Shown here: piece by piece, positions 3,834-32,081 of the stretch
Numbering within the stretch: position 1 is the first letter of the stretch
Layout of the letters: each line of letters starts with the position of its first letter
Source: Gordonia iterans
GTDB taxonomy: Bacteria > Actinomycetota > Actinomycetes > Mycobacteriales > Mycobacteriaceae
Reading direction: 5' to 3'
DNA: 64,000 bases
Assembly (NCBI RefSeq): GCF_002993285.1
Contig: NZ_CP027433.1
Location: 434,001 to 498,000, forward strand
Notes under the pieces: generated by a model
What the model was told of the DNA's origin: nothing
Seen by the model: only the letters and a program-made list of their open reading frames with translations
Database searches by the model: none
Translations under genes and position numbers: made by a program

Positions 3834-5090
3834 TCAGCGCGGCTCGATGACCTGGAACCCGGTGAAGGTCGCGAGCTCGTTGGGGATCACCACGGAGCCG
3901 TCGGGCTGCTGGTGGTTCTCCAGGATCGCCACCAGCCAGCGGGTGGTCGCGAGGGTGCCGTTGAGCGTCGCGGCGATCTGCGCCTTGCCGTTCTCGTCGC
4001 GGTAGCGGGTGGCGAGTCGTCGTGCCTGGAAGGTGGTGCAGTTCGACGTCGAGGTCAGCTCGCGGTACGTGTTCTGCGTCGGGATCCAGGCCTCGCAGTC
4101 GAACTTGCGCGACGCCGAGCTGCCCAGGTCGCCGGCGGCGACGTCGATCACCCGGTACGGCACGTCGATGGCGGCCAGCATCGACTTCTCGAAGTCGAGC
4201 AGCCGCTGATGCTCGGCTTCGGCGTCTTCGGGACGGCAGTAGACGAAGCCCTCGACCTTGTCGAACTGATGCACGCGGATGATGCCCCGGGTGTCTTTGC
4301 CGTACGAGCCGGCCTCGCGGCGGAAGCACGTCGACCAGCCGGCGTAGCGCTTGGGGCCGTCCGAGAGGTCCAGGATCTCGTCGGCGTGGTAACCGGCGAG
4401 CGGCACCTCGGAGGTCCCGACGAGGTAGGCGTCGTCTTCTTCCAGGTGATAGACCTCGGCGGCGTGGGCACCGAGGAATCCGGTGCCGCCCATCACCTCG
4501 GGACGCACCAGTACGGGCGGGATCATCATCGTGAAGCCGGCCGCGGTGGCTTTGGCTGCCGCCATGTTCAGCAGTCCGAGCTGCAGCATGGCGCCCTGAC
4601 CGGTGAGGAAGTAGAAGCGCGAACCGGACACCTTGGCGCCGCGTCCCATGTCGATCAGGCCCAGGCTCTCACCGAGCTCCAGGTGGTCCTTCGGTTCGGC
4701 GATCTCGCGCGGGGTGCCGACGTGCTCGAGCACCACGTAATCGTCCTCGCCGCCGGGTGGGGTCTGCGCGGAGACGATGTTCGAGATCGCGCGATGCGCC
4801 TCGGCCGAAGTCTGCTCGGCGTCGTTCTGCCGGGATACCGCCGCCTTGACCAGGTCGGACAGCTCCTTCGCGCGGCTCAGTAACGCGGATTTCTCGTCCC
4901 CGGCGGCCTTGCCGACCTGCTTGCCGAGGCCCTTCTGCTCCGCCCGCAGCGCGTCGGCTTCGACGATGGCGGCGCGGCGCGCGGCATCGGCGTCGAGCAG
5001 CCGGTCGACCAGGGCCGGGTCCTCTCCGCGAGCGCGCTGGCTGTCCCGGACCAGATCGGGGTTCTCCCGCACAATCTTCAGGTCAATCAC
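3834..5090 (-). CDS. serS: seryl-tRNA synthetase
   Basis: This 418-aa class II synthetase attaches serine to tRNA-Ser in the cytoplasm. Its N-terminal coiled-coil arm (about residues 30-100) is rich in Ala, Arg and Glu. The class II core has [14 protein letters not shown], the motif 2 region [26 protein letters not shown] and the motif 3 region [15 protein letters not shown]. The start is GTG at 5090 ([12 protein letters not shown]), the usual SerRS N terminus, and length is normal. It is convergent with the TetR gene. Its place beside the septum-formation gene matches Rv3834c in M. tuberculosis. Confidence 0.97.
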
Positions 5091-5146: not shown

Positions 5147-6253
5147 ATGAGTGCTCCCGATGTTGACGCCACCGGCCCCGAGGATTCCGCCCCGGCCCGC
5201 CGGACTAGTGCCGCGCGCCTGGCCGCGGTGCTGGTCGCGGTCTTGGTCGGCGCCCTGGTGGCGGGAACCGTGATCTACACTCGCGGCGGGTTCTCCGAGG
5301 CCGGCGGCCTGGGCGAGACCGTGATCGGCGAAGGCGGCTCGTATGCCGAGACCGACTTCACCCGATCGGCGCCGGGCGACTGCCTGACCTGGAACGACGA
5401 CGCGGCCGAGACGCCCACCAAGGTGCCGTGCACCGAACCGCACCGGTTCGAGGTCGCCGGTACCGTCAACACCGCACAGTTCCCGGGATCCGAGTTCGGC
5501 CTCGATGCGCCGGCGCCCACCCCGGAACGGTACGCCGAACTCCGCGATGAGCACTGCGGAGTGATCGTCGAACGCTACCTCGGCGGCGGTCTGGATCCGC
5601 AGGGCCGCTTCGCGGTCGGTCTGATGTTCCCGTCGAAGGCGCAGTGGGATCGCGGCGCCCGGGTGTTGCGGTGCGGCATCGAACAGCCCGGCCCCGGCGG
5701 CGTCCATCAGGAGTTCGCCGGGCGCGTCGCCGACAGCGATCAGTCGTTCGCCTGGCCCGACGGGACCTGCATCGGGATCGACGACGCCACCCGCAAGCCG
5801 ACCGCCGAGCCGGTCAACTGTGCCGAACCGCACGCCTTTCAGACGACCGGGGTCGTCGACCTGTCGCAGCGCTTCGGCGCCCGCGACTCCGGCCGCCCGT
5901 GGCCGAGTGTGGCCGACCAGAACCAATACCTGCAGACCATCTGTCCCAATCGGACCAACCGCTTCTTCGGCGGCGTCCAGAAGTTCCGGGAGACGACGCT
6001 GAACGTGCAGTGGTCGGTGATCTCCGAGGTCAGCTGGAACACCGGCAGCCGTCGCGTCGTCTGCTACGTCGCCCTGCCCGACCGCGGGGGATTCGCCAAA
6101 CTCGTCGGCGATGCCCGCGAACAGGTGCTGATCAACGGCAAGATTCCGACTCCGCCCGCGCAGGGACCGCCCGGCCGCGCGCTGCCGACCCCGGTGCCGC
6201 TGCCCCCCGGCTACTCGCCGAACGATCAAGAGGTGCCGGCCCCGGCCGGCTGA
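5147..6253 (+). CDS. septum-formation family membrane protein
   Basis: This 368-aa protein matches the actinobacterial septum-formation family (Rv3835-like). It has a short cytoplasmic N terminus, one membrane helix (about residues 24-43, AARLAAVLVAVLVGALVAGTV), and an extracytoplasmic region with two related halves. Each half has a DCLTW- or GTCIG-type start followed by a CxEPHxFxxxG motif (PCTEPHRFEVAGTV and NCAEPHAFQTTGVV). The C terminus is Pro-rich. The enzymatic role is unknown. It is divergent from serS and 14 bases upstream of the metallopeptidase gene, a conserved pair. Confidence 0.85.
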   Translation: MSAPDVDATGPEDSAPARRTSAARLAAVLVAVLVGALVAGTVIYTRGGFSEAGGLGETVIGEGGSYAETDFTRSAPGDCLTWNDDAAETPTKVPCTEPHRFEVAGTVNTAQFPGSEFGLDAPAPTPERYAELRDEHCGVIVERYLGGGLDPQGRFAVGLMFPSKAQWDRGARVLRCGIEQPGPGGVHQEFAGRVADSDQSFAWPDGTCIGIDDATRKPTAEPVNCAEPHAFQTTGVVDLSQRFGARDSGRPWPSVADQNQYLQTICPNRTNRFFGGVQKFRETTLNVQWSVISEVSWNTGSRRVVCYVALPDRGGFAKLVGDAREQVLINGKIPTPPAQGPPGRALPTPVPLPPGYSPNDQEVPAPAG

Positions 6254-11633: not shown

Positions 11634-13040
11634 CTATTTGACGCCGAGCCTGGTGCCCGCCTGGGACCGTTCACGCTGCTGGCGCAGGCACTCGTCGAAA
11701 TCAGTGCGCCATGATTCTTCGACCGGGAGGCCCCGGCTTGCGGCCTCGTCCGTGGAGAGCTCGACCGGGAAACCGTAACGGTCGTAGAGAATATAGAAAT
11801 CGTCGCCGGTGAGCGGACGATTCTCCTTGCTCAGGCGGCGCAGTTCACGCAGTCCTTTACCCATCGTCCGGCGGAATGCGCGCTCTTCTTTGGTGAGCGC
11901 TTCGAGGATCTCATCCGACGCGCCGGCCAGGGCCGGATAGGCGTCGGCGTACGTCTGGATCACCACGCGTGCGACCTCACCGATCGCCCCCGCGCCGAGT
12001 TCCAGCGAATGTGCGAACCGGATTGCGCGTCGCAGCAATCTGCGCAAGACGTACCCGTGCTCCTTGCTGCCCGGTGCGACTCCGTCGGCGATGAGGAACA
12101 CCGCCCCACGCACGTGGTCGGCGATGATGCGCATGGCACGGGTCTGCTCGTCGTAGGAGGCGCCGGAGAGCTCCTGCAGCTTCACGATCAGCGGCCAGAG
12201 CGTTCCGACCCGGTACACGTCCGGACTGTCGAGGGCTGCGGCGGCGATCCGCTCCAGCCCGCCGCCGTAGTCGACGTTGCGACGCCCCAGCGGGCGCAGG
12301 CCCGACTCGGTGCGCGAGTACTGCATGAAGACGGAGTTCCCGATCTCCAGAAACTGGCCGCCGTCTGAGTTCGGGTGCGAGCACGGACCGAACGAGGTGT
12401 CGTGTTCCACCTGCGGGAAGTAGTAGAAGATCTCGGTGTCGGGTCCACCCGGATCCCCGAGCGGCATACTCTCCGGTCCACCAGCCCGCGACCACCAGTT
12501 CTTGTCGCGGTAGAAGCAGATCCTTGCGCCCCCGTGCCCCTCCGCGTTTCCCCGTTCTTCGGTCTCCAGGTCGACGCGGTCGCAGCTCACCCCGGCCGCC
12601 GTGAACAACTCCGCCCAGACGTCGGCGCTCTCGTCGTCCCGAGTGATGCCCAGCGCAGGGTCCCCGGAGTAGACGCTCACATACAGCCGATCCGGGTCCA
12701 GCCCGACGTAGTCGACGAGAAAGCCCCACACCATCTCGATCTGCTCGCGCTTGAAGTAGCTTCCCAGACTCCAGTTGCCGAGCATCTCGAAGAAGGTCGT
12801 ATGCCGGTTGTCGCCGACCTCCTCGATGTCCTGCGAGCGCACGCACGGCTGCACGTCGGCGAGACGCTCGCCGGACGGGTGCTCGGCACCGAGCAGATAC
12901 GGCACCAGAGGCTGCATACCACTTCCCGTGAAGAGCGTCGTCGAGTCGCCTCTTAGAACCAGCGGAGCCCGCTCCAGGATGACGTGACCAGACCCTTCCG
13001 TCCGTTCGAGGAATCCCCTGCGAATATCGTCTATGTCCAC
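11634..13040 (-). CDS. stand-alone alanyl-tRNA synthetase catalytic core
   Basis: This 468-aa protein matches the N-terminal half of AlaRS only. Visible parts are the motif 2 region RHTTFFEMLGNWSLG (residues 79-93), the SHPNSDGGQFLEIGNSVFMQY loop (221-241), motif 3 VDYGGGLER (257-265), the acceptor-stem recognition helices RIIADHVRGAVFLIADGV to YVLRRLLRRAIR (304-341), and the conserved Asp in LYDRYGFP (420). It ends 48 residues later. The editing domain and C-Ala (another ~420 residues in normal AlaRS) are absent with no trace downstream, so this is a finished short protein. The GTG start at 13040 is chosen for GGAAGGA upstream and the normal AlaRS N terminus; the frame's other start is a TTG at 13079. 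A mini-tRNA lies upstream on the same strand, and a DUF2156 lipid-transferase operon is divergent. Known AlaRS fragments of about 461 residues charge minihelices with G3.U70, which is what the neighbour RNA offers. Confidence 0.93.
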   Translation of the reverse strand: MDIDDIRRGFLERTEGSGHVILERAPLVLRGDSTTLFTGSGMQPLVPYLLGAEHPSGERLADVQPCVRSQDIEEVGDNRHTTFFEMLGNWSLGSYFKREQIEMVWGFLVDYVGLDPDRLYVSVYSGDPALGITRDDESADVWAELFTAAGVSCDRVDLETEERGNAEGHGGARICFYRDKNWWSRAGGPESMPLGDPGGPDTEIFYYFPQVEHDTSFGPCSHPNSDGGQFLEIGNSVFMQYSRTESGLRPLGRRNVDYGGGLERIAAAALDSPDVYRVGTLWPLIVKLQELSGASYDEQTRAMRIIADHVRGAVFLIADGVAPGSKEHGYVLRRLLRRAIRFAHSLELGAGAIGEVARVVIQTYADAYPALAGASDEILEALTKEERAFRRTMGKGLRELRRLSKENRPLTGDDFYILYDRYGFPVELSTDEAASRGLPVEESWRTDFDECLRQQRERSQAGTRLGVK

Positions 13041-13307
13041 TCCGACAATGTCCTTCCACGACCATAGTTCAGCGTTCAAGCGGTCCTCGATCAGGCCACT
13101 TCAAAGCGCCAGGGCGATAATGTGATGAGGACGGTACAGCACTCTCCGATCACGCTGCAAGCACTTGGTTTCGATTGGCGGAAATGGCTCCTGGGGAGTC
13201 TTTATAGATTCCAGTGAAGGTGCATCGATGCCTGCCGGCATGCTCCCGAACGAACTGTAAACCTGCAGCTCATCTCGGCCTTTGCAAGAAGTATGAGGCC
13301 AGCTCAG
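13041..13307 (-). other. leader between mini-tRNA and AlaRS-core gene
   Basis: This 267-base stretch separates the mini-tRNA from the AlaRS-core start on the same strand. I see no strong terminator, and GGCC arms near 13279 and 13298 form only a weak hairpin. The RNA could therefore be the 5' part of one long transcript that is processed, or a regulatory leader. No coding frame looks real. Confidence 0.4.
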
Positions 13308-13360
13308 TGGAGGACATACGGATCGAACGTATCGAAGGCGCCCCGTCCGGCGCATCCCCC
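13308..13360 (-). ncRNA. alanine mini-tRNA-like RNA, copy 1 (CCA not encoded)
   Basis: On the minus strand from 13360 the parts are: acceptor 5' strand GGGGGAT (13354-13360), a 5-bp hairpin GCGCC/GGCGC with six-base loop GGACGG (13338-13353), linker CTTCG, a T arm ATACG/CGTAT with loop TTCGATC (13316-13332), acceptor 3' strand GTCCTCC (13309-13315) and discriminator A (13308). All seven acceptor pairs form, with G3.U70 and U7.G66 as wobbles. G1-C72, G2-C71, G3.U70, G4-C69 and A73 are the alanine identity set. There is no D arm, no 17-base anticodon arm and no alanine anticodon. The second copy at 31417 is identical except for two loop bases. It lies 267 bases upstream of the AlaRS-core gene, with a promoter-like TAATAT nine bases before its 5' end. 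Confidence 0.82.
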
Positions 13361-13369
13361 TCGCCCCTC

Positions 13370-13399
13370 ATATTAGGGTGCCGATAACACTACCGATAA
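13370..13399 (-). promoter_or_regulatory. promoter of mini-tRNA copy 1, with TTATCGG direct repeats
   Basis: On the minus strand TAATAT (13370-13375) is a good -10 element, and TTATCG (13394-13399) lies 18 bases further up as a possible -35. Transcription would start at about the first base of the mini-tRNA. TTATCGG occurs twice, 12 bases apart (near 13394 and 13382), which could be a regulator site. Confidence 0.5.
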
Positions 13400-13467
13400 G
13401 TTCCGTGGTCGGCAAGCGCTAATGTCGATCAGGCTATCCGGGGAATAACACATCTCACTTGCATTGA

Positions 13468-13486
13468 GTACAAATCGCGCTTGTAC
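13468..13486. promoter_or_regulatory. inverted repeat in the divergent control region
   Basis: GTACAA (13468-13473) and TTGTAC (13481-13486) form a perfect inverted repeat with a 7-base spacer. It lies between the mini-tRNA/AlaRS-core unit and the divergent transferase operon, so it is a candidate operator for both. Confidence 0.45.
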
Positions 13487-13548
13487 CGCCTGTTCATCGG
13501 ATCTCTTTGATATATCGCCCTCCTCAGGGTCGACGGCACCCCGGAATC

Positions 13549-15720
13549 ATGCCCTATGATCCACTCATGCTCGATGGTGATGCACTGCCGAAATCCCCCG
13601 ATCAAGCCGAATCGGCGGCCTCGAACCCTCTCCGGCAATCGATCGGAAGGCTTATTCGCAGAGCCCGGGTGATCGTCACGCACGCCCCCCTCTCCCTCGC
13701 CGCCGCGGGCGTCGTGCTGATCGCCGGCATCGCGTCCGGAACGCTTTGGCAGAGCATCCAGCTGAAGGCGTGGTTCGACGACGTCGCCTACGGTGTGCCC
13801 GCCCTCCGCGAGGGCCAGTGGTGGACTGTGCTGAGCGGTACCGTCTTCGGTCTGACGCCTGCGCAGGTGGTGAGCATCCTGGTGCTGGCGGTCACGGTGC
13901 TGGCCTGGTCCGAATGGCGCTTGGGAACGCTTCGCACCGCGCTGGTGATGCTGCTCTCGCAAGTTCTCGGAGTACTGGCCACCGCGCTGTTCGCCTGGGC
14001 TTTGAGCGACAGCGTCATCTCGGGCATTCACTGGCAGTGGCCGACGCACCTGGCGACGATCCGCGACGTCGGCATGACGACTGCGATCGTCGGAGCGGTC
14101 ACCGCGGCGACTGCTACGCTCCGCTCCCCGTGGCGCCTCCGCATGCGGTTGGTCATCGTCGCCTACGTGGCACTGAGCCTGTTGTTCCGCGGTTCCTTCG
14201 CCGATGTCAGTCATCTGGTCGCGTTCGCGGTGATGCTGCCGGCCGGCGAACGCCTATTCAGCACAGCCGAGCACGGATTCGCCCCGCGTACACGCCGTGA
14301 AGTCCGGTTGTTGGGATTCAGCGGGCTGATCGTGATCGCGGCGGCTGCAGTACTGGTCTGGTTCTTCCCGGGATCCGGTCCCCTCGGTCCCACCGATTCC
14401 GAGGACTCGTCGATCTGGGCGATGTGGATCCACGTGGGCGTTATCGTCTTCGTCGCCCTAGGTCTGCGCCGCGGACGTCGATGGGCGTGGTGGGTCACCG
14501 TGGTCTTCGGCCTGCTCAACGTCGTGGGACTGATTGTCACCGTCGTCCTGCTCCTTACGACGGACTTCGTGCCCCAGGGCGGCGTCACGCTCGGGACCAG
14601 CATTCTGTGGCTCGCCGAAGTGGCGATTCTATTCTCCGGACGCTTCGCGTTCCGCGGCCGGTTGCGTGTCCCGGCGACCGACGGGCCGGGCGCCCCGCTG
14701 GCCAAGGACCTGATCCGGAACTACGGCGGCGGAACCATGTCCTGGATGACGATATGGCCCGGCAATCACTACCTGTTCGACGACGTCGACGCGCCCTCCA
14801 CCGTGGTCGCCTATCAACGTCACGCGGGCACGATGATCGCCCTGACCGACCCGGTCGGTCCGCCGGAACTCCTGGACCAGTCCGTCCGCGAGTTCACGAA
14901 GTTCGCCGAAGCGAGCGGGCTGACACCGTGCTGGTTCTCGATCGATGCGGAGACGGCCGCGTCTGCCGAGCGCATGGGATGGCGCACGGCCCAGATCGCC
15001 GAGGACGCCATCGTCGATCTGCCCGGTCTCGCGTTCAAGGGAAAGCCGTGGCAGCACGTCCGCACCGCAATGAACAAGGCCAAGAAGGAAGGGCTCCGCC
15101 ACCGCCTGGTCCGCCTCGCCGACGAGCCGTTCTCGGTACGCGCCCAAGTTCAGGCCATCTCCGAGGAGTGGGTCGGCGACAAAGGGCTGCCAGAGATGGG
15201 CTTCACCCTCGGCGGCGTCGACGAGGCCCTCGACCCGGAGACCGTCGTCTCATTGGCCGTCGACGGAGACGGCAGCGTGCACGGCGTCCTGTCGTGGCTG
15301 CCTGTCTACGGTCGCCACGGTGTGGTCCAGGGCTGGACGCTCGACGTCATGCGGAGGCGGTCCGACGGATTCGGTCCGGTCATCGAGTTCATGCTCGGCT
15401 CTGCGTTCCTCGAGTTCCAGGCGCAGGGCGCACTGTTCGCCTCGCTGTCGGGAGCTCCACTCGCAAGTTCCACCGGCGAGGTCAGCGCTTCGGCGACCGA
15501 CCGATTGCTCGACGCGCTAGGCGGGGCACTCGAGCCGTTCTACGGATTCCGGTCGCTGCACGCGTTCAAGAAGAAGTTCCAGCCCCGCTACCAAGGCGTG
15601 TACCTCGCCTTCCGCGACGAGGCTGACCTGCCCCGCATCGGGATCGCGATCTCCCGCGCTTACCTTCCCGATGCGACTCCGCGGCAACTGGCTCAACTGG
15701 CAATGAGCGCCGAACGATGA
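13549..15720 (+). CDS. MprF-like membrane aminoacyl-tRNA:lipid transferase
   Basis: This protein of about 723 aa has an N-terminal membrane half and a C-terminal DUF2156 domain (about residues 385-705). The membrane half begins like a rhomboid-type domain (ALREGQWWTVLSGTVFG) and continues through several helices. The DUF2156 part has KDLIRNYGGGTMSWMTIWPGN, GTMIALTDPVG, RTAMNKAKKEG and a C-terminal FYGFRSLHAFKKKFQPRYQ segment, as in aminoacyl-phosphatidylglycerol synthases of the MprF/LysX type. Such enzymes move an amino acid from charged tRNA to PG or diacylglycerol on the inner face of the membrane. Alanine as donor is inferred from the divergent AlaRS core and mini-tRNA. The start is uncertain: ATG at 13549 is used; 13567 is possible and TTG at 13507 unlikely. 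The next gene follows after four bases. Confidence 0.88.
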   Translation: MPYDPLMLDGDALPKSPDQAESAASNPLRQSIGRLIRRARVIVTHAPLSLAAAGVVLIAGIASGTLWQSIQLKAWFDDVAYGVPALREGQWWTVLSGTVFGLTPAQVVSILVLAVTVLAWSEWRLGTLRTALVMLLSQVLGVLATALFAWALSDSVISGIHWQWPTHLATIRDVGMTTAIVGAVTAATATLRSPWRLRMRLVIVAYVALSLLFRGSFADVSHLVAFAVMLPAGERLFSTAEHGFAPRTRREVRLLGFSGLIVIAAAAVLVWFFPGSGPLGPTDSEDSSIWAMWIHVGVIVFVALGLRRGRRWAWWVTVVFGLLNVVGLIVTVVLLLTTDFVPQGGVTLGTSILWLAEVAILFSGRFAFRGRLRVPATDGPGAPLAKDLIRNYGGGTMSWMTIWPGNHYLFDDVDAPSTVVAYQRHAGTMIALTDPVGPPELLDQSVREFTKFAEASGLTPCWFSIDAETAASAERMGWRTAQIAEDAIVDLPGLAFKGKPWQHVRTAMNKAKKEGLRHRLVRLADEPFSVRAQVQAISEEWVGDKGLPEMGFTLGGVDEALDPETVVSLAVDGDGSVHGVLSWLPVYGRHGVVQGWTLDVMRRRSDGFGPVIEFMLGSAFLEFQAQGALFASLSGAPLASSTGEVSASATDRLLDALGGALEPFYGFRSLHAFKKKFQPRYQGVYLAFRDEADLPRIGIAISRAYLPDATPRQLAQLAMSAER

Positions 15721-15724
15721 TGCG

Positions 15725-16525
15725 ATGACTTCCTGGTTCTCCCACACGATCGTCGCGAGCGGGCGCCTGCCCCTGTTCCTGATGGCCGTCGGCTTTCTGC
15801 TGACTTTCCTCTTCATCCGCTTCAGCACCCGGATGATCCGGGCCCAGGTGCGCTGGTGGCCGGGAAACATCACCCCGGGCGGACTCCACATCCACCACGT
15901 CGTGTTCGGCCTAGTCACCGTCCTGGCCAGCGGATTCTCGCTGGTCGCACTCGCGAACTATCACACCCCCGTCACCAACGCAGTGCTCGGCACGTCGTTC
16001 GGGATCGGTGCGGCGCTGGTCCTGGACGAGTTCGCAATGGTCCTGCATCTGCGCGACGTGTATTGGACAAGGGAAGGCCGCTCCAGCATCGACGCCGTGT
16101 TCGCGGCGCTCGCCATCACCGTCCTGTTCGTCTTGGGACTGCACCCGGTGGGACTGTCCGGCGAGTTCGCCGAATACGAGACTGACCGTCAGGCTTCCAC
16201 ACTTGCGACGACGCTGGCCGTCCTCTGCGTGCAGTACCTGCTCGCTGTCGTGGTTCTCGTCAAAGGGAAGATCTGGACTGGTCTCCTCGGCCTGTTTCTT
16301 CCGGTCCTGTTGGTGGTCGGAGCGATCCGACTCGCTCGCCCGGCATCACCCTGGGCGCGCCGCTTCTACCGGGATCGGCCGGCCAAACGGGGCCGCGCCG
16401 AGCGACGGGAGCTGCGCTATCGCGAGCCGGTACGCCGTTCCAAAATCCGACTCCAGGAAGCCGTCGCGGGTCGCTTCGACCTGGACGGGCACGACGACCC
16501 CGTGCCCCGATCGGAGCAGCGGTGA
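15725..16525 (+). CDS. multi-pass membrane protein with HIHH and DE motifs
   Basis: This 266-aa protein has about six membrane helices and a basic cytoplasmic tail (RRFYRDRPAKRGRAERRELR). Conserved-looking polar residues lie at membrane edges: GGLHIHHVVFG (H55, H57, H58) and, after a helix with GTSFGIGAALVLDEFAM, D101-E102. The product of 17802-18899 repeats this layout (LHIAHALYGG, then FGLFIDEVGKF), so the two look like distant paralogues. The His and Asp/Glu arrangement could bind a metal; that is inference. The family is not one I can name. The gene sits in a coupled operon with the DUF2156 transferase and the hydrolase, so a role in flipping or remodelling the modified lipid is plausible. 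Confidence 0.7.
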   Translation: MTSWFSHTIVASGRLPLFLMAVGFLLTFLFIRFSTRMIRAQVRWWPGNITPGGLHIHHVVFGLVTVLASGFSLVALANYHTPVTNAVLGTSFGIGAALVLDEFAMVLHLRDVYWTREGRSSIDAVFAALAITVLFVLGLHPVGLSGEFAEYETDRQASTLATTLAVLCVQYLLAVVVLVKGKIWTGLLGLFLPVLLVVGAIRLARPASPWARRFYRDRPAKRGRAERRELRYREPVRRSKIRLQEAVAGRFDLDGHDDPVPRSEQR

Positions 16526-17805
16526 AGGCTCTGCTCGACCTGGATATCTCCACCGGATGGGTTCCGGTGGCGCTGACTGCCGTCGGCGCTGTGGCACTGT
16601 GCTGGCTTCTGCTGCTGCGCCCGGTCCGCGCTGCGGTCATGCTGATCGGCGGCGCACTGGTGGGCACCGTGGTGGTGATCGTCGTCGCCCGATGGCTCAT
16701 CGAGGATGTGATCGCGCTGGTGCCCGATCCGATTCCGCTCGCCGTGTACGCGTGGTCCGCGGCGATCCTGTTCGGGACGATCACCGGAGTCATCCGGCTC
16801 GTCCGCGACCGGGGTGTGTGGCGCCGGGTCGTGACATTGCTGGCCGTACTGTGCGTCACCGTCGCCGGCCTCGCCCAGATCAACGCCCACTTCGGCGAGT
16901 ACCCCACGGTCCGGAGCCTGCTCGGCATCACCGGTGCGCCGTCGGTCGATCTCGGCGCCCTCTCCCCGTCCCGCACGGTGCCGCTGGCGAGCTGGCGGCC
17001 ACCGCCTGGTCTACCGGCCGAGGGCCGCGTCGCGACCGTGGACATTCCTGCCACGAAGTCCAAGTTCTCGGCACGGCCGGCGCAGGTGTACCTGCCTCCG
17101 GCCTACTTCGCCGATCCCAGACCAGTCCTTCCGGTGCTCGTCCTGATCGCGGGCCAGCCGGGCTCCCCGGAGGATTGGGCCTTGCGGGCCGCCTCGGTGC
17201 AGTCGCTCAACGATTTCGCCGCCCAGCATCACGGCGTGGCGCCCATTGTCATCGCCGCTGACGGGACCGGAACCGAATTGGGGAATCCCCTGTGCATGGA
17301 CTCTCGACTCGGCAACGCCGCGACCTACCTGACCGCAGACATCGCGGAGTGGGCGCGTACTGGACTCGACGCGGAGACCGACCGTCGCAAGTGGGCCGTC
17401 GGCGGCCTCTCGTACGGGGGAACCTGCGCGCTGCAACTTGTGACCAACTTCCCCGACCAGTACCCGACCTTCCTGAACATGTCCGGGCAGTACGAACCCA
17501 CTCTCGGCGACCGCAGTCGGACGATCAGCGAAGCCTTCGGCGGCGACGCATCCGCGTTCGCGGCGGTGAACCCGGCCGACTTGCTGCGCCACCGCAGGTA
17601 TCCCGGAGTCGCCGGTGTCTTTGTCATCGGTGCCGACGACCACGCCTTCCGGCCCGGGCTCGAGCGGTTGGCACCCCTCGCCCGACAGTCCGGCATGGAC
17701 GTGCGGCTGTCCGTGATTCCCGGCGGCCACGATTTCCGAGTGTGGGCCGCCGGGCTCCGGGAGCAGCTGCCTTGGCTCGGCCGGCGAATGGGCATCGACT
17801 CGTGA
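16522..17805 (+). CDS. membrane-anchored alpha/beta-hydrolase (esterase)
   Basis: This 427-aa protein has about four N-terminal membrane helices (residues 10-125) and an outward esterase-D/antigen-85-like hydrolase domain. The nucleophile is S297 in GGLSYGG, the acid is probably in GADDHAF (about 370) and the His is H403 in PGGHDFRVW. The GTG start overlaps the upstream stop, showing coupling. In other bacteria, aminoacyl-PG synthases have partner hydrolases that remove the amino acid from the lipid (for example AhyD of Enterococcus faecium). By position this gene is the candidate for that role. It could instead be an acyl- or mycolyl-transferase-like enzyme. Confidence 0.82.
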   Translation: MKALLDLDISTGWVPVALTAVGAVALCWLLLLRPVRAAVMLIGGALVGTVVVIVVARWLIEDVIALVPDPIPLAVYAWSAAILFGTITGVIRLVRDRGVWRRVVTLLAVLCVTVAGLAQINAHFGEYPTVRSLLGITGAPSVDLGALSPSRTVPLASWRPPPGLPAEGRVATVDIPATKSKFSARPAQVYLPPAYFADPRPVLPVLVLIAGQPGSPEDWALRAASVQSLNDFAAQHHGVAPIVIAADGTGTELGNPLCMDSRLGNAATYLTADIAEWARTGLDAETDRRKWAVGGLSYGGTCALQLVTNFPDQYPTFLNMSGQYEPTLGDRSRTISEAFGGDASAFAAVNPADLLRHRRYPGVAGVFVIGADDHAFRPGLERLAPLARQSGMDVRLSVIPGGHDFRVWAAGLREQLPWLGRRMGIDS

Positions 17806-18899
17806 CCCACACGGACGAGACGACCGCCCGGGTAGCGGGATTCGTGCGCGAGCGCGGCGGCACCACATCGGTGACCGCCTTCCTCACCACGACCGTGGTC
17901 ACTGTGCTGGTGACCCGTGTCTACCTCCAAGCGACCGGATACCCGCAGATAGGAGGTGGTTCGCTGCACATCGCTCACGCGCTGTACGGCGGAGCCCTGA
18001 TGGTTGCGGCGCTGGTCGCCCAGTGGTTGTTTCTAGGGTTTCGAGTCCGCAACTTCTCGATCGCCGTCGGTGGGATCGGCTTCGGACTGTTCATCGACGA
18101 GGTCGGAAAGTTCGTGACCAAGTCGAACGACTACTTCTTCCACCCTGCCGCCGACATCATCTACGTCACGGTGGTCGCCGTCATCGGCGCCGGCAATGCA
18201 GTCCGGTTGATACGTCGCCCGACCCCGCACGAGGCACTGTCGAACGCGGCGGACATCGCCGCCCGGGGAGTCGCTCGAGGGCTGTCGCAACGACGCCGGC
18301 AGGACGCCGAGAACCTGTTGCGGCGAGCACTCGACGGCGGCGCCGATCCTGCGGTAGTCCGTACCGTCGGCGTCCTGGTTCGCTCGTGCCCCGCCGCGAC
18401 CGATCGGGGTGCCGAGGTGCGGGCGGCCCTGTCCGAACTGGTGCCGCCGGCGGTGCGCTCCCCTTTCTGGGTCACCTTCCTCGGATGGCTCCTCGTGGCG
18501 ACGTCTCTCGCGACGTGCCTCACTTCCGCCGTTGACCTTCCGTGGCGGCCTTCGGAACTCCTCTTCCACGCGGTCTCCGACAGGCACTTGCAGACCATCT
18601 CGAACACGACGTACATCGTGCTGGGCGGAGCGGTCTTCCTCACCGCCGGGGCCGGGATGATCGGCCGGGCGCATGCTCGCCGCCGGCGACTTCACTGGGA
18701 ATGGCCGTTGCGGGCCTTACAGACGGCGATAGTCGTCTTCACCCTGGTGGGCGGCTTGGTTGACTTCGCACAGTTCGGATTCGCCGCCCTGGCGAGCATC
18801 GCCGTCGGACTGATCACCCTCGCTGCCGTCAACAGTGAACTCACCCGTCTCCGCCGATGCGAATCTCCCGAGGAACGAGCCGATCGAATTCTCATGTGA
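17802..18899 (+). CDS. membrane protein, HxxH/DE type, paralogue of 15725-16525
   Basis: This 365-aa protein has an N-terminal membrane block, a soluble middle (about residues 145-220, RRQDAENLLRRALDGG) and a C-terminal block of about four helices. The first block repeats the motif layout of the 15725 product: GGSLHIAHALYGG (H56, H59), then GGIGFGLFIDEVGKFVT with D99-E100, at nearly the same spacing. The GTG start overlaps the hydrolase stop, so it is the last gene of the coupled run. I do not recognise the family. The two proteins may act as a pair in export or modification of the lipid product. Confidence 0.7.
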   Translation: MTHTDETTARVAGFVRERGGTTSVTAFLTTTVVTVLVTRVYLQATGYPQIGGGSLHIAHALYGGALMVAALVAQWLFLGFRVRNFSIAVGGIGFGLFIDEVGKFVTKSNDYFFHPAADIIYVTVVAVIGAGNAVRLIRRPTPHEALSNAADIAARGVARGLSQRRRQDAENLLRRALDGGADPAVVRTVGVLVRSCPAATDRGAEVRAALSELVPPAVRSPFWVTFLGWLLVATSLATCLTSAVDLPWRPSELLFHAVSDRHLQTISNTTYIVLGGAVFLTAGAGMIGRAHARRRRLHWEWPLRALQTAIVVFTLVGGLVDFAQFGFAALASIAVGLITLAAVNSELTRLRRCESPEERADRILM

Positions 18900-31224: not shown

Positions 31225-31381
31225 GCAGTGTCCAGACGGTCGGGTGCGGCACCGGCGCTTTGAGCCGGTGACGTCGACAGTAGTTTTCCGGAGCCTATGA
31301 ACACCAATCCATGACATTTTCCCGAGCACAAGTCTGAATTGATTGAAGGAAGTTCGAGCAGTTCCAGGCCGAACAATAGTG

Positions 31382-31414
31382 AAAGGCCGCCGGACGACAG
31401 TTCCGGCGGCCTTT
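31382..31414 (-). terminator. intrinsic terminator of mini-tRNA copy 2
   Basis: A perfect 13-bp stem (31382-31394 and 31402-31414) with GGCCGCCGGA/TCCGGCGGCC arms and a 7-base loop ends in TTT on the minus strand. It begins two bases after the encoded CCA of the mini-tRNA. Confidence 0.85.
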
Positions 31415-31416
31415 CC

Positions 31417-31472
31417 TGGTGGAGGACATACGGATCGAACGTATCGAAGGCGCCCCAACCGGCGCATCCCCC
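31417..31472 (-). ncRNA. alanine mini-tRNA-like RNA, copy 2 (CCA encoded)
   Basis: On the minus strand from 31472 the parts are: GGGGGAT (31466-31472), hairpin GCGCC/GGCGC with loop GGTTGG (31450-31465), CTTCG (31445-31449), T arm ATACG-TTCGATC-CGTAT (31428-31444), GTCCTCC (31421-31427), then A and CCA (31417-31420). The total is 56 bases. Acceptor stem, G3.U70, A73 and T arm are identical to copy 1; only the two middle loop bases differ (TT for AC). An encoded CCA followed at once by a terminator shows a finished tRNA-like 3' end. No D arm or usable anticodon arm exists, so it should not decode. The transcript is free-standing, with no AlaRS or transferase gene beside it. Confidence 0.82.
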
Positions 31473-31601
31473 TCGTATGTGCCAAGGTGGCTATTGAGAT
31501 TTAAGCAAATGGCACCGGAGAAGGCAACCCACGGGCAAATGTACAAGCAAGTATTGTGTCCACGAAAGCATGATGTGTGGGATTCGGGCGCGGTGACGGG
31601 T

Positions 31602-32048
31602 GGCGGTGTCATAGCGTCGTAGCAACATTGCTGGTCTGAGAGGGTTGCTGGGTGGGACGCAGGGCACTGACTGAGGAGGACCGCGCCGAGATCGCGGTCG
31701 GGGTGAAAGCCGGGTGGACGCTGACGAAGATCGCCGATGGGATCGGGCGGTGTAAGTCGATCGTGTCCCGGGAGGTACGCCGCAACGCGACCGCGACGGG
31801 ACGGTATCGGCCGGTTCATGCGGGCAGGGCCGCCGCGGCGCGACGGTCCCGTCCCCAGCTTCATGCTGTGGCTGCTGATCCGCGAGTACCTGCCCAAGGG
31901 CACCGAGATCACCAGCCACCAGCCCTACCTCGAGGCGATCGCCCACGAGCTCAACGAACGCCCCCGCGCGTGCCTGGGCTACTACACGCCAGGGAGAAGT
32001 TCGAAATCCTGCTACGCAGCCACGTTGCTTCCACGGCTTGACACCGCC
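31602..32048 (+). mobile_element. IS30-family deletion derivative with both ends
   Basis: The inverted ends (31602-31626 and 32024-32048) share GGCGGTGTCA at the tips and AGCAAC at the inner edge. GGT flanks both sides (31599-31601 and 32049-32051) as a 3-bp target duplication. Only 447 bp remain of an element normally over 1 kb. It may still be moved by a complete IS30 elsewhere. Confidence 0.8.
31652..32041 (+). pseudogene. IS30 transposase remnant
   Basis: The N-terminal helix-turn-helix is intact (GRRALTEEDRAEIAVGVKAG and ITRIADGIG-like KIADGIGRCKSIVSREVRRN). The C-terminal signature (REYLPKGTEITSHQPYL and LNERPRACLGYYTP) is present in a different frame. The DDE catalytic centre is deleted and the frames do not join, so it cannot act alone. 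It sits inside the element 31602-32048. Confidence 0.85.
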
Positions 32049-32081
32049 GGTAACGGTATTGGCTGACGAGGTGACTGCGGT

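Follow-up and report, generated by a model that had tools for sequence, protein, structure and literature searches.

The window analysed here is a 64,000-nucleotide stretch of the Gordonia iterans genome (assembly GCF_002993285.1, contig NZ_CP027433.1, positions 434,001 to 498,000, forward strand). It carries a short tRNA-like RNA gene, hereafter the mini-tRNA, lying between the gene for a stand-alone catalytic core of alanyl-tRNA synthetase (AlaRS) and a divergent operon that begins with an aminoacyl-tRNA transferase of the DUF2156 family. The RNA is strongly conserved in soil actinobacteria, and in several genera it is co-inherited with a pared-down enzyme for loading alanine and an enzyme that modifies lipids, which suggests a private carrier of alanine that operates outside translation. 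In window coordinates, the features are:

11634..13040, minus strand: stand-alone AlaRS catalytic core, 468 aa from a GTG start (PF01411, E 2.8e-99), editing and C-Ala domains absent
13308..13360, minus strand: mini-tRNA copy 1, 53 nt (56 nt counting CCA), identified by search pattern and covariance models
13370..13375, minus strand: possible, weak -10 box (TAATAT) upstream of copy 1, read from the sequence
13549..15720, plus strand: DUF2156/LPG_synthase_C aminoacyl-tRNA transferase (PF09924, E 4.3e-68) with a membrane N-terminus
15725..16525, plus strand: membrane protein without a Pfam match
16522..17805, plus strand: esterase (PF00756, E 1.8e-10) with a GLSYGG motif
17802..18899, plus strand: membrane protein without a Pfam match
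31381..31415, minus strand: terminator-like hairpin with a 14-bp stem, directly 3' of copy 2
31420..31472, minus strand: mini-tRNA copy 2, 53 nt, close to the family consensus, with CCA encoded at 31417-31419

These assignments uphold much of the original prediction, which had proposed an AlaRS core of 468 aa, a tRNA-like RNA of about 56 nt with the alanine acceptor signature, and a divergent, tightly coupled operon containing a DUF2156 transferase. The operon junctions consist of one 4-base gap and two 4-base overlaps, with the last gene taken from GTG 17802, a start chosen inside the listed open reading frame (ORF) 17292-18899. The transferase start at 13549 was picked by eye within a 737-aa ORF that begins at 13507, and the core ORF extends to 13079 if a TTG start is taken. 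Two further claims held in part: both of the membrane proteins said to be related are present, with a common GGxLHIxHxxxG-like motif and only weak similarity (E 0.043), and the hydrolase said to be membrane-anchored is the PF00756 esterase, its anchor resting on an N-terminus judged hydrophobic by eye. Copy 1 shares its strand with the core gene, at a distance of 267 nt upstream, and the housekeeping AlaRS is encoded elsewhere in the genome (C1:2230226, a 932-aa frame). Copy 2, of which the original prediction made no mention, could be the principal gene of the pair. ORF fragments resembling transposases or integrases by eye adjoin it at 31490-32066, and it may be the product of a duplication.

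Copy 1 reads GGGGGAT-GCGC(CGGACGGG)GCGC-CTTCG-ATACG(TTCGATC)CGTAT-GTCCTCC-A on the minus strand. The outer segments, GGGGGAT and GTCCTCC, form a full 7-bp acceptor with G3:U70 and A73, and enclose a D-arm-like hairpin of 4-5 bp, with GGG at the end of its loop as in a D loop, then a short linker and a canonical T arm (5-bp stem, TTCGATC loop). The D loop of this copy is unusual. The anticodon arm is absent, the 19-21 nt between acceptor and T stem holding a single hairpin of 4-5 bp. The RNA had been predicted to be a minihelix, an identity that has to be given up; because it comprises an acceptor, a D-like arm and a T arm, it is better described as a tRNA without an anticodon arm. Set against the definition of tRNA-Ala, it has a T arm, whose stem covaries, and a GG-bearing D loop (the D loops end in GGG), and lacks an anticodon arm with an alanine anticodon.

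Canonical tRNA-Ala genes in other actinobacterial loci, mostly with a UGC anticodon, have the acceptor GGGGGAT/ATCCTCC and the D loop CAGCTGGG, and the mini-tRNA acceptor is identical to that of tRNA-Ala(UGC) save for pair 7-66. By this comparison the RNA has the look of a tRNA-Ala derivative from which U8-A9 would have been lost, together with the anticodon arm and the greater part of the variable loop. In the T stem, pair 52-62 is C-G in 32 of 42 aligned mini-tRNA rows and G-C in all 21 usable canonical tRNAs (of 24 found in the fetched loci). Escape from EF-Tu through T-stem pair 51-63 was considered and rejected: A-U occupies this pair in 42/42 mini-tRNA rows but also in 7/21 canonical tRNAs, so that it is not distinctive.

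Within the window, ARAGORN called neither copy, and Rfam returned no match to either at gathering scores, nor any match in 13200-13500 even at E 10. Across five loci, the sole Rfam overlap with the RNA was with istR, at E 0.94 and short of the gathering score of that family. The mini-tRNA search pattern found two matches in the window and none in 100 shuffles. A covariance model (R1) built from eight copies scored copy 1 at 84.1 bits and copy 2 at 86.6 bits, the top of its genome. It was widened to R2 (80.1 bits for copy 1) and then R3, giving a structure-fitted alignment with 42 copies as its rows, 31 of them distinct. The acceptor was fixed by the search pattern in 22 of the 42 rows, the remaining 20 coming from covariance model searches; with this proviso, G3:U70 and A73 are present in 42/42, and the acceptor is the most conserved helix. 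Standard pairs fill 99.8% of helix cells in the 42 copies, and six pairs are changed on both sides, in the D-like arm (GCGC/GCGC, CCAC/GTGG, GCAC/GTGC and GCGT/ACGC) and the T stem (ATACG/CGTAT and CCAGG/CCTGG). The covariation score, the percentage paired and the number of doubly changed cells were each reached by 0/500 shuffles, and collapse when the partners are slid. RNAalifold recovers the same three helices unaided from this alignment.

A terminator-like hairpin stands directly 3' of the RNA in 70 of 123 distinct contexts, which include related strains. Six other offsets gave 1-10 such hairpins in 120-123 contexts, and shuffled windows gave 31 in 615. An encoded CCA is present in 61 of the 123 contexts, and no clear promoter consensus emerged across the contexts. 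The mini-tRNA is a conserved RNA gene, as predicted; this is shown by computation, through the covariation, the terminators and the failure of any shuffle to reproduce the pattern. These data also bear on whether it might be a regulator (a decoy, a leader or an AlaRS sensor) and not an amino-acid donor, an idea that draws on the place of copy 1 upstream of the core gene, and on the regulation of some synthetases by tRNA mimics (PMC9976931). An RNA that so often has its own terminator and an encoded CCA, whose acceptor is its most conserved helix, and whose position varies (by the core, by the esterase, by the transferase, or distant from all) makes a poor candidate for such a role, which we regard as improbable.

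The core has the class II active site and tRNA-recognition domain of AlaRS, as judged by PF01411, fold and residues. Among 30 core rows (one duplicate) the proteins stop 0-12 residues past the match, and seven canonical AlaRSs go on for 445-476. An AF2 model (pLDDT 87.7) finds its best fold matches among AlaRSs, including the E. coli catalytic fragment 3HXU. The motif 2 and 3 Arg, the alanine-site Asn and Asp, and one Trp are kept in 41/41 cores; by computation, then, the catalytic residues for alanine and ATP are intact in the core. The two residues expected to read G3:U70 correspond to Asn303 and Asp400 of the E. coli enzyme, as placed through the 3HXU alignment; their equivalents are Asn in 32/41 cores and Asp in 38/41. 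The wider family, 'alanine--tRNA ligase-related protein' of ~465 aa, is widespread among actinobacteria, with at least 7991 of 8000 scored candidates passing E 1e-80. A different role for the core has a precedent in AcmF, likewise a truncated AlaRS-like protein clustered with a hydrolase (PMC12945691), and the core could by analogy be an alanyltransferase that uses Ala-tRNA and not a synthetase. AcmF, however, carries N219Q and D232E, whereas the presumed equivalent Asn and Asp, with the motif 2/3 Arg and the Trp, are kept in 41/41 cores. On these residues, taking the equivalence of positions as our own reading, the analogy was rejected as very improbable.

The solved structures nearest to the transferase domain are LpiA and LysPGS; AlaPGS was also matched, and substrate specificity is not readable from this comparison. 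The N-terminus gave a sub-threshold Rhomboid_2 match, and the match to the MprF model NF033480 falls short of the cut-off and is confined to profile positions 445-836 of 841, so that the flippase N-terminus of MprF was not found. The 737-aa ORF contains no LysRS domain. For the esterase, the nearest match is the esterase of xylanase Z, and PS1 was a further match.

The original prediction had called for a covariance-model search of actinobacterial genomes for the RNA next to short AlaRS and DUF2156 genes. Run on 151 relatives, it found the RNA in 15, all of them among the 16 that have the core. The RNA is therefore present in 15/16 core genomes and 0/135 core-less ones (p 9e-20, uncorrected for kinship), the exception being G129, which gave no RNA even with lenient filters. 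In a further core-less set it was found in 0/28 genomes (15 of them already in the 135). An order-wide sample of 397 genomes contained 14 with the core, seven of which had not been counted before; the RNA is present in four of these seven (G630, G636, G666 and G731) and missing from three (G842, G926 and G679), bringing the total to 19/23. RNA and core need not be neighbours: they stand apart in six genomes of one family (f4), being separated by 940 kb in G137, on different contigs in G144 and G150, and distant or on another contig in G630, G636 and G666. The genome scans of the relatives (with R1), the phylum and the Micrococcaceae used strict filters that lose weak matches, so absence in them is not proof.

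A phylum scan gave matches in 19/396 genomes at E <= 0.1, convincing only in G000 and G158; six of the 17 others were inspected (L051, L053, L057, L062, L066 and L067) and rejected as parts of ordinary or Sec-type tRNAs or hairpins. A phage origin was likewise set aside, as none of three viral matches has a paired T stem, and so was plasmid carriage, with no mini-tRNA and no core above 39% identity. Near the cores of L029, L239, L240 and L241, a strict G3:U70 scan found no diverged mini-tRNA and ARAGORN no tRNA-Ala. The neighbours of the RNA-less cores appear by eye cobalamin-like in L239 and unrelated in L240, hinting at another role for the core at these two loci.

Co-occurrence also speaks to the notion that the RNA is a tRNA relic or an integration scar. 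The transposase-like fragments beside copy 2 and the odd D loop of copy 1 would suit such an origin, but a complete two-sided acceptor, compensatory changes, terminators and strict co-occurrence with the core leave it scarcely credible.

The predicted coupling of the RNA to the transferase and esterase is borne out by linkage, in loci of the Gordonia family and elsewhere in which no more than 0.35 kb separates the RNA from the core, from the MprF-like transferase or from the esterase. With the window excluded, the RNA is 104-349 nt upstream of the aligned esterase start, on the same strand, in nine of ten Gordonia-family loci, and in seven of these the transferase comes next on that strand; the core is close by. 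In G120 it lies 77 nt after the core match, and in G137 and the Pseudonocardia loci L072 and L076 about 0.1 kb after the transferase. Among 15 loci, homologues of the esterase were found in nine, of the 15725-16525 protein in one (L018), and of the 17802-18899 protein in L018, L019 and L020.

A pattern scan of named genomes gave at least 120 matches on at least 118 stretches (titles for 80), of which 17 were dropped for an unpaired T stem and at least 103 kept. At least 15 T-stem-paired matches, on at least 14 stretches, share the stretch with a homologue of the core, transferase or esterase; among the matches listed, these come from Gordonia, Williamsia, Pseudonocardia, Kitasatospora and a Rhodococcus metagenome-assembled genome, some having no title shown, and one Pseudonocardia stretch (L122) has the RNA without such a homologue. 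The other matches, at least 87, lie mostly at one syntenic place, with flanking ORF families shared by up to at least 82 loci and titles, where shown among the matches listed, mostly of Arthrobacter and kin. On a tree of 46 transferases (omitting the short matches L028 and L216 and the duplicates L138 and L180), the label 'linked to the RNA' needs five changes, at least four of them forced, compared with 15 when shuffled, which implies repeated gain or loss of the link. In L226 and L227, two Gordonia genomes that lack the RNA, a related transferase is kept beside genes of ribosomal-protein and secY type, named by eye. These transferases make up a subfamily of their own, and may use ordinary aminoacyl-tRNA.

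In the Micrococcaceae, 26 of 80 genomes have the RNA. At E < 1e-50, 18/26 of these and 13/54 of the rest have a homologue of the transferase (p 1.8e-4), in most cases of its catalytic domain only; counted by genus, the figures are 9/11 and 5/21 (p 0.003). A query that does detect cores in the 151 relatives and in the order found none in these 80 genomes at E 1e-75; the G158 housekeeping enzyme scores 6.5e-61. One core protein, among the matches listed, is named from Paenarthrobacter nicotinovorans, so the absence of the core from the family is not complete; in most of its members, which have no core, charging of the RNA would fall to the housekeeping AlaRS. G615 has the RNA, then a DUF2156 gene and then an esterase with 32% identity to that of the window, a triad that supports the association in a second order. 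A Micrococcaceae-type locus, L155, has two identical mini-tRNAs (4515-4566 and 5261-5312) about 0.75 kb apart. Mini-tRNAs of this type also appear in records titled Vibrio cholerae (L091) and Acidobacteria (L146), where mislabelling or contamination is likely.

It is here that a broader use of the RNA has to be weighed, in which a real anticodon-less alanine carrier would chiefly serve another Ala-tRNA-dependent reaction, such as cell-wall cross-bridge formation or metabolite alanylation, with the DUF2156 enzyme as one user among others. At least 87 of the at least 103 T-stem-paired matches have no core, transferase or esterase homologue or fall outside the linked set, most with common flanking ORFs; 8/26 RNA-bearing Micrococcaceae have no clear DUF2156 homologue, so that either another user of the RNA exists or the transferase there is too distant; and the Fem ligases are related GNAT-fold users of aminoacyl-tRNA (PMC2922099). 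Nevertheless, the recognisable partners of the RNA are always the transferase, the esterase or the core, and the transferase is enriched even in the Micrococcaceae, by genome and by genus. We consider this alternative unlikely, though it is the one to be taken most seriously.

We favour, with a probability of roughly 0.6, an anticodon-less tRNA-Ala that is charged by the core or the housekeeping AlaRS and feeds the transferase for an envelope acceptor, from which the esterase can remove the alanine. From the computed RNA gene, structure, conservation, co-occurrence, linkage and catalytic residues, we infer expression, charging, transfer, acceptor and reversal. The core would charge the mini-tRNA with alanine in Gordonia, Williamsia, Pseudonocardia and Nakamurella; where the core is absent, as in most Micrococcaceae, this task would go to the housekeeping AlaRS. 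The membrane DUF2156 transferase would then move the alanine from the RNA to an acceptor in the envelope, most probably a phospholipid, from which the esterase could strip it off again. An RNA without an anticodon would be unable to decode, and its alanine would therefore be committed to this pathway.

Several observations weigh against this scheme. Copy 1 has no encoded CCA (CTG follows), terminator or consensus promoter, a promoter scan having given no promoter-like site there, and in the window the RNA and core lie on the opposite strand to the transferase operon. In the window core, Ser occupies the position of the Asn expected to read G3:U70, and the Asp is kept. Doubly changed pairs were matched by 59/500 shuffles and pair types by 301/500, and the single-sequence folding energy of five copies was no better than that of shuffles (z -1.2 to 0.3), for which reason thermodynamic folding alone was rejected as support. 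Strong as the coupling of RNA and core is among the 151 relatives, at 15/16 against 0/135, 4/23 core genomes overall have no RNA (G129, G842, G926 and G679, the last 88% complete), and the core was found in 0/80 Micrococcaceae genomes at E 1e-75. The core family is much wider, with Microbacterium, Agromyces and Terrabacter among the best 120 of 7991 matches. Finally, in 21 of the core-less relatives a full-length homologue of the transferase is present but the RNA is not, and 8/26 RNA-bearing Micrococcaceae are without a transferase homologue at E < 1e-50, one of them having a weak one.

On a wider view, we lean towards an actinobacterial class of anticodon-less tRNAs that work outside translation, charged first by the housekeeping enzyme and later by a private core, feeding envelope-modifying transferases and so providing two aminoacyl-RNA pools for one amino acid. 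The diversion of aminoacyl-tRNA to MprF-type enzymes against the pull of EF-Tu has been called an open question (PMC9976931), and is likewise raised elsewhere (PMC4052509). A private non-decoding RNA would, if true, answer it directly, and would be nature's equivalent of the minihelices made in laboratories, from which it has been argued that tRNA had its acceptor half before its anticodon half. It also adds an RNA family missed here by ARAGORN and Rfam. A literature search, with bioRxiv and most subscription journals outside its scope, found no description of this RNA among the papers listed, in the portions of text it covered.

Several known systems share one or another of these features. 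The tRNA-like domain of tmRNA is a natural bacterial alanine acceptor without an anticodon; the mini-tRNA differs in being a free RNA of 53 nt, with no message part and no Rfam match. The staphylococcal non-proteinogenic tRNA-Gly species are full tRNAs with anticodons, whereas the mini-tRNA has no anticodon arm. The likeness lies in a tRNA altered to escape EF-Tu and used outside translation (PMC9976931). Armless mitochondrial tRNAs are natural short tRNAs, down to 44 nt, but in them it is the D or T arm that is lost and the anticodon that stays, the reverse of the situation here (PMC9976931, PMC7609411). The ascamycin proteins AcmF and AcmD also combine a truncated AlaRS-like protein with a hydrolase in non-translational alanylation; the core described here keeps its catalytic residues, and section 4 of the AcmF account mentions no special RNA (PMC12945691). 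A further parallel is with MprF and LysX. MprF1 has been reported, in a review, to accept minihelix-Ala (PMC4052509), and the pairing of a synthetase paralogue with an MprF-like enzyme is already known from LysX and from VlmL/VlmA, LysX being a GNAT-fold PF09924 transferase with its own synthetase paralogue in actinobacteria (PMC2922099). In LysX the transferase is fused to a LysRS paralogue, whereas here the AlaRS core is a protein of its own, an RNA without an anticodon appears to act as dedicated donor, and the transferase N-terminus is unlike the flippase part of MprF. Placed among these systems, the enzymes are new members of known families, and the RNA is of a kind that we were unable to assign to any.

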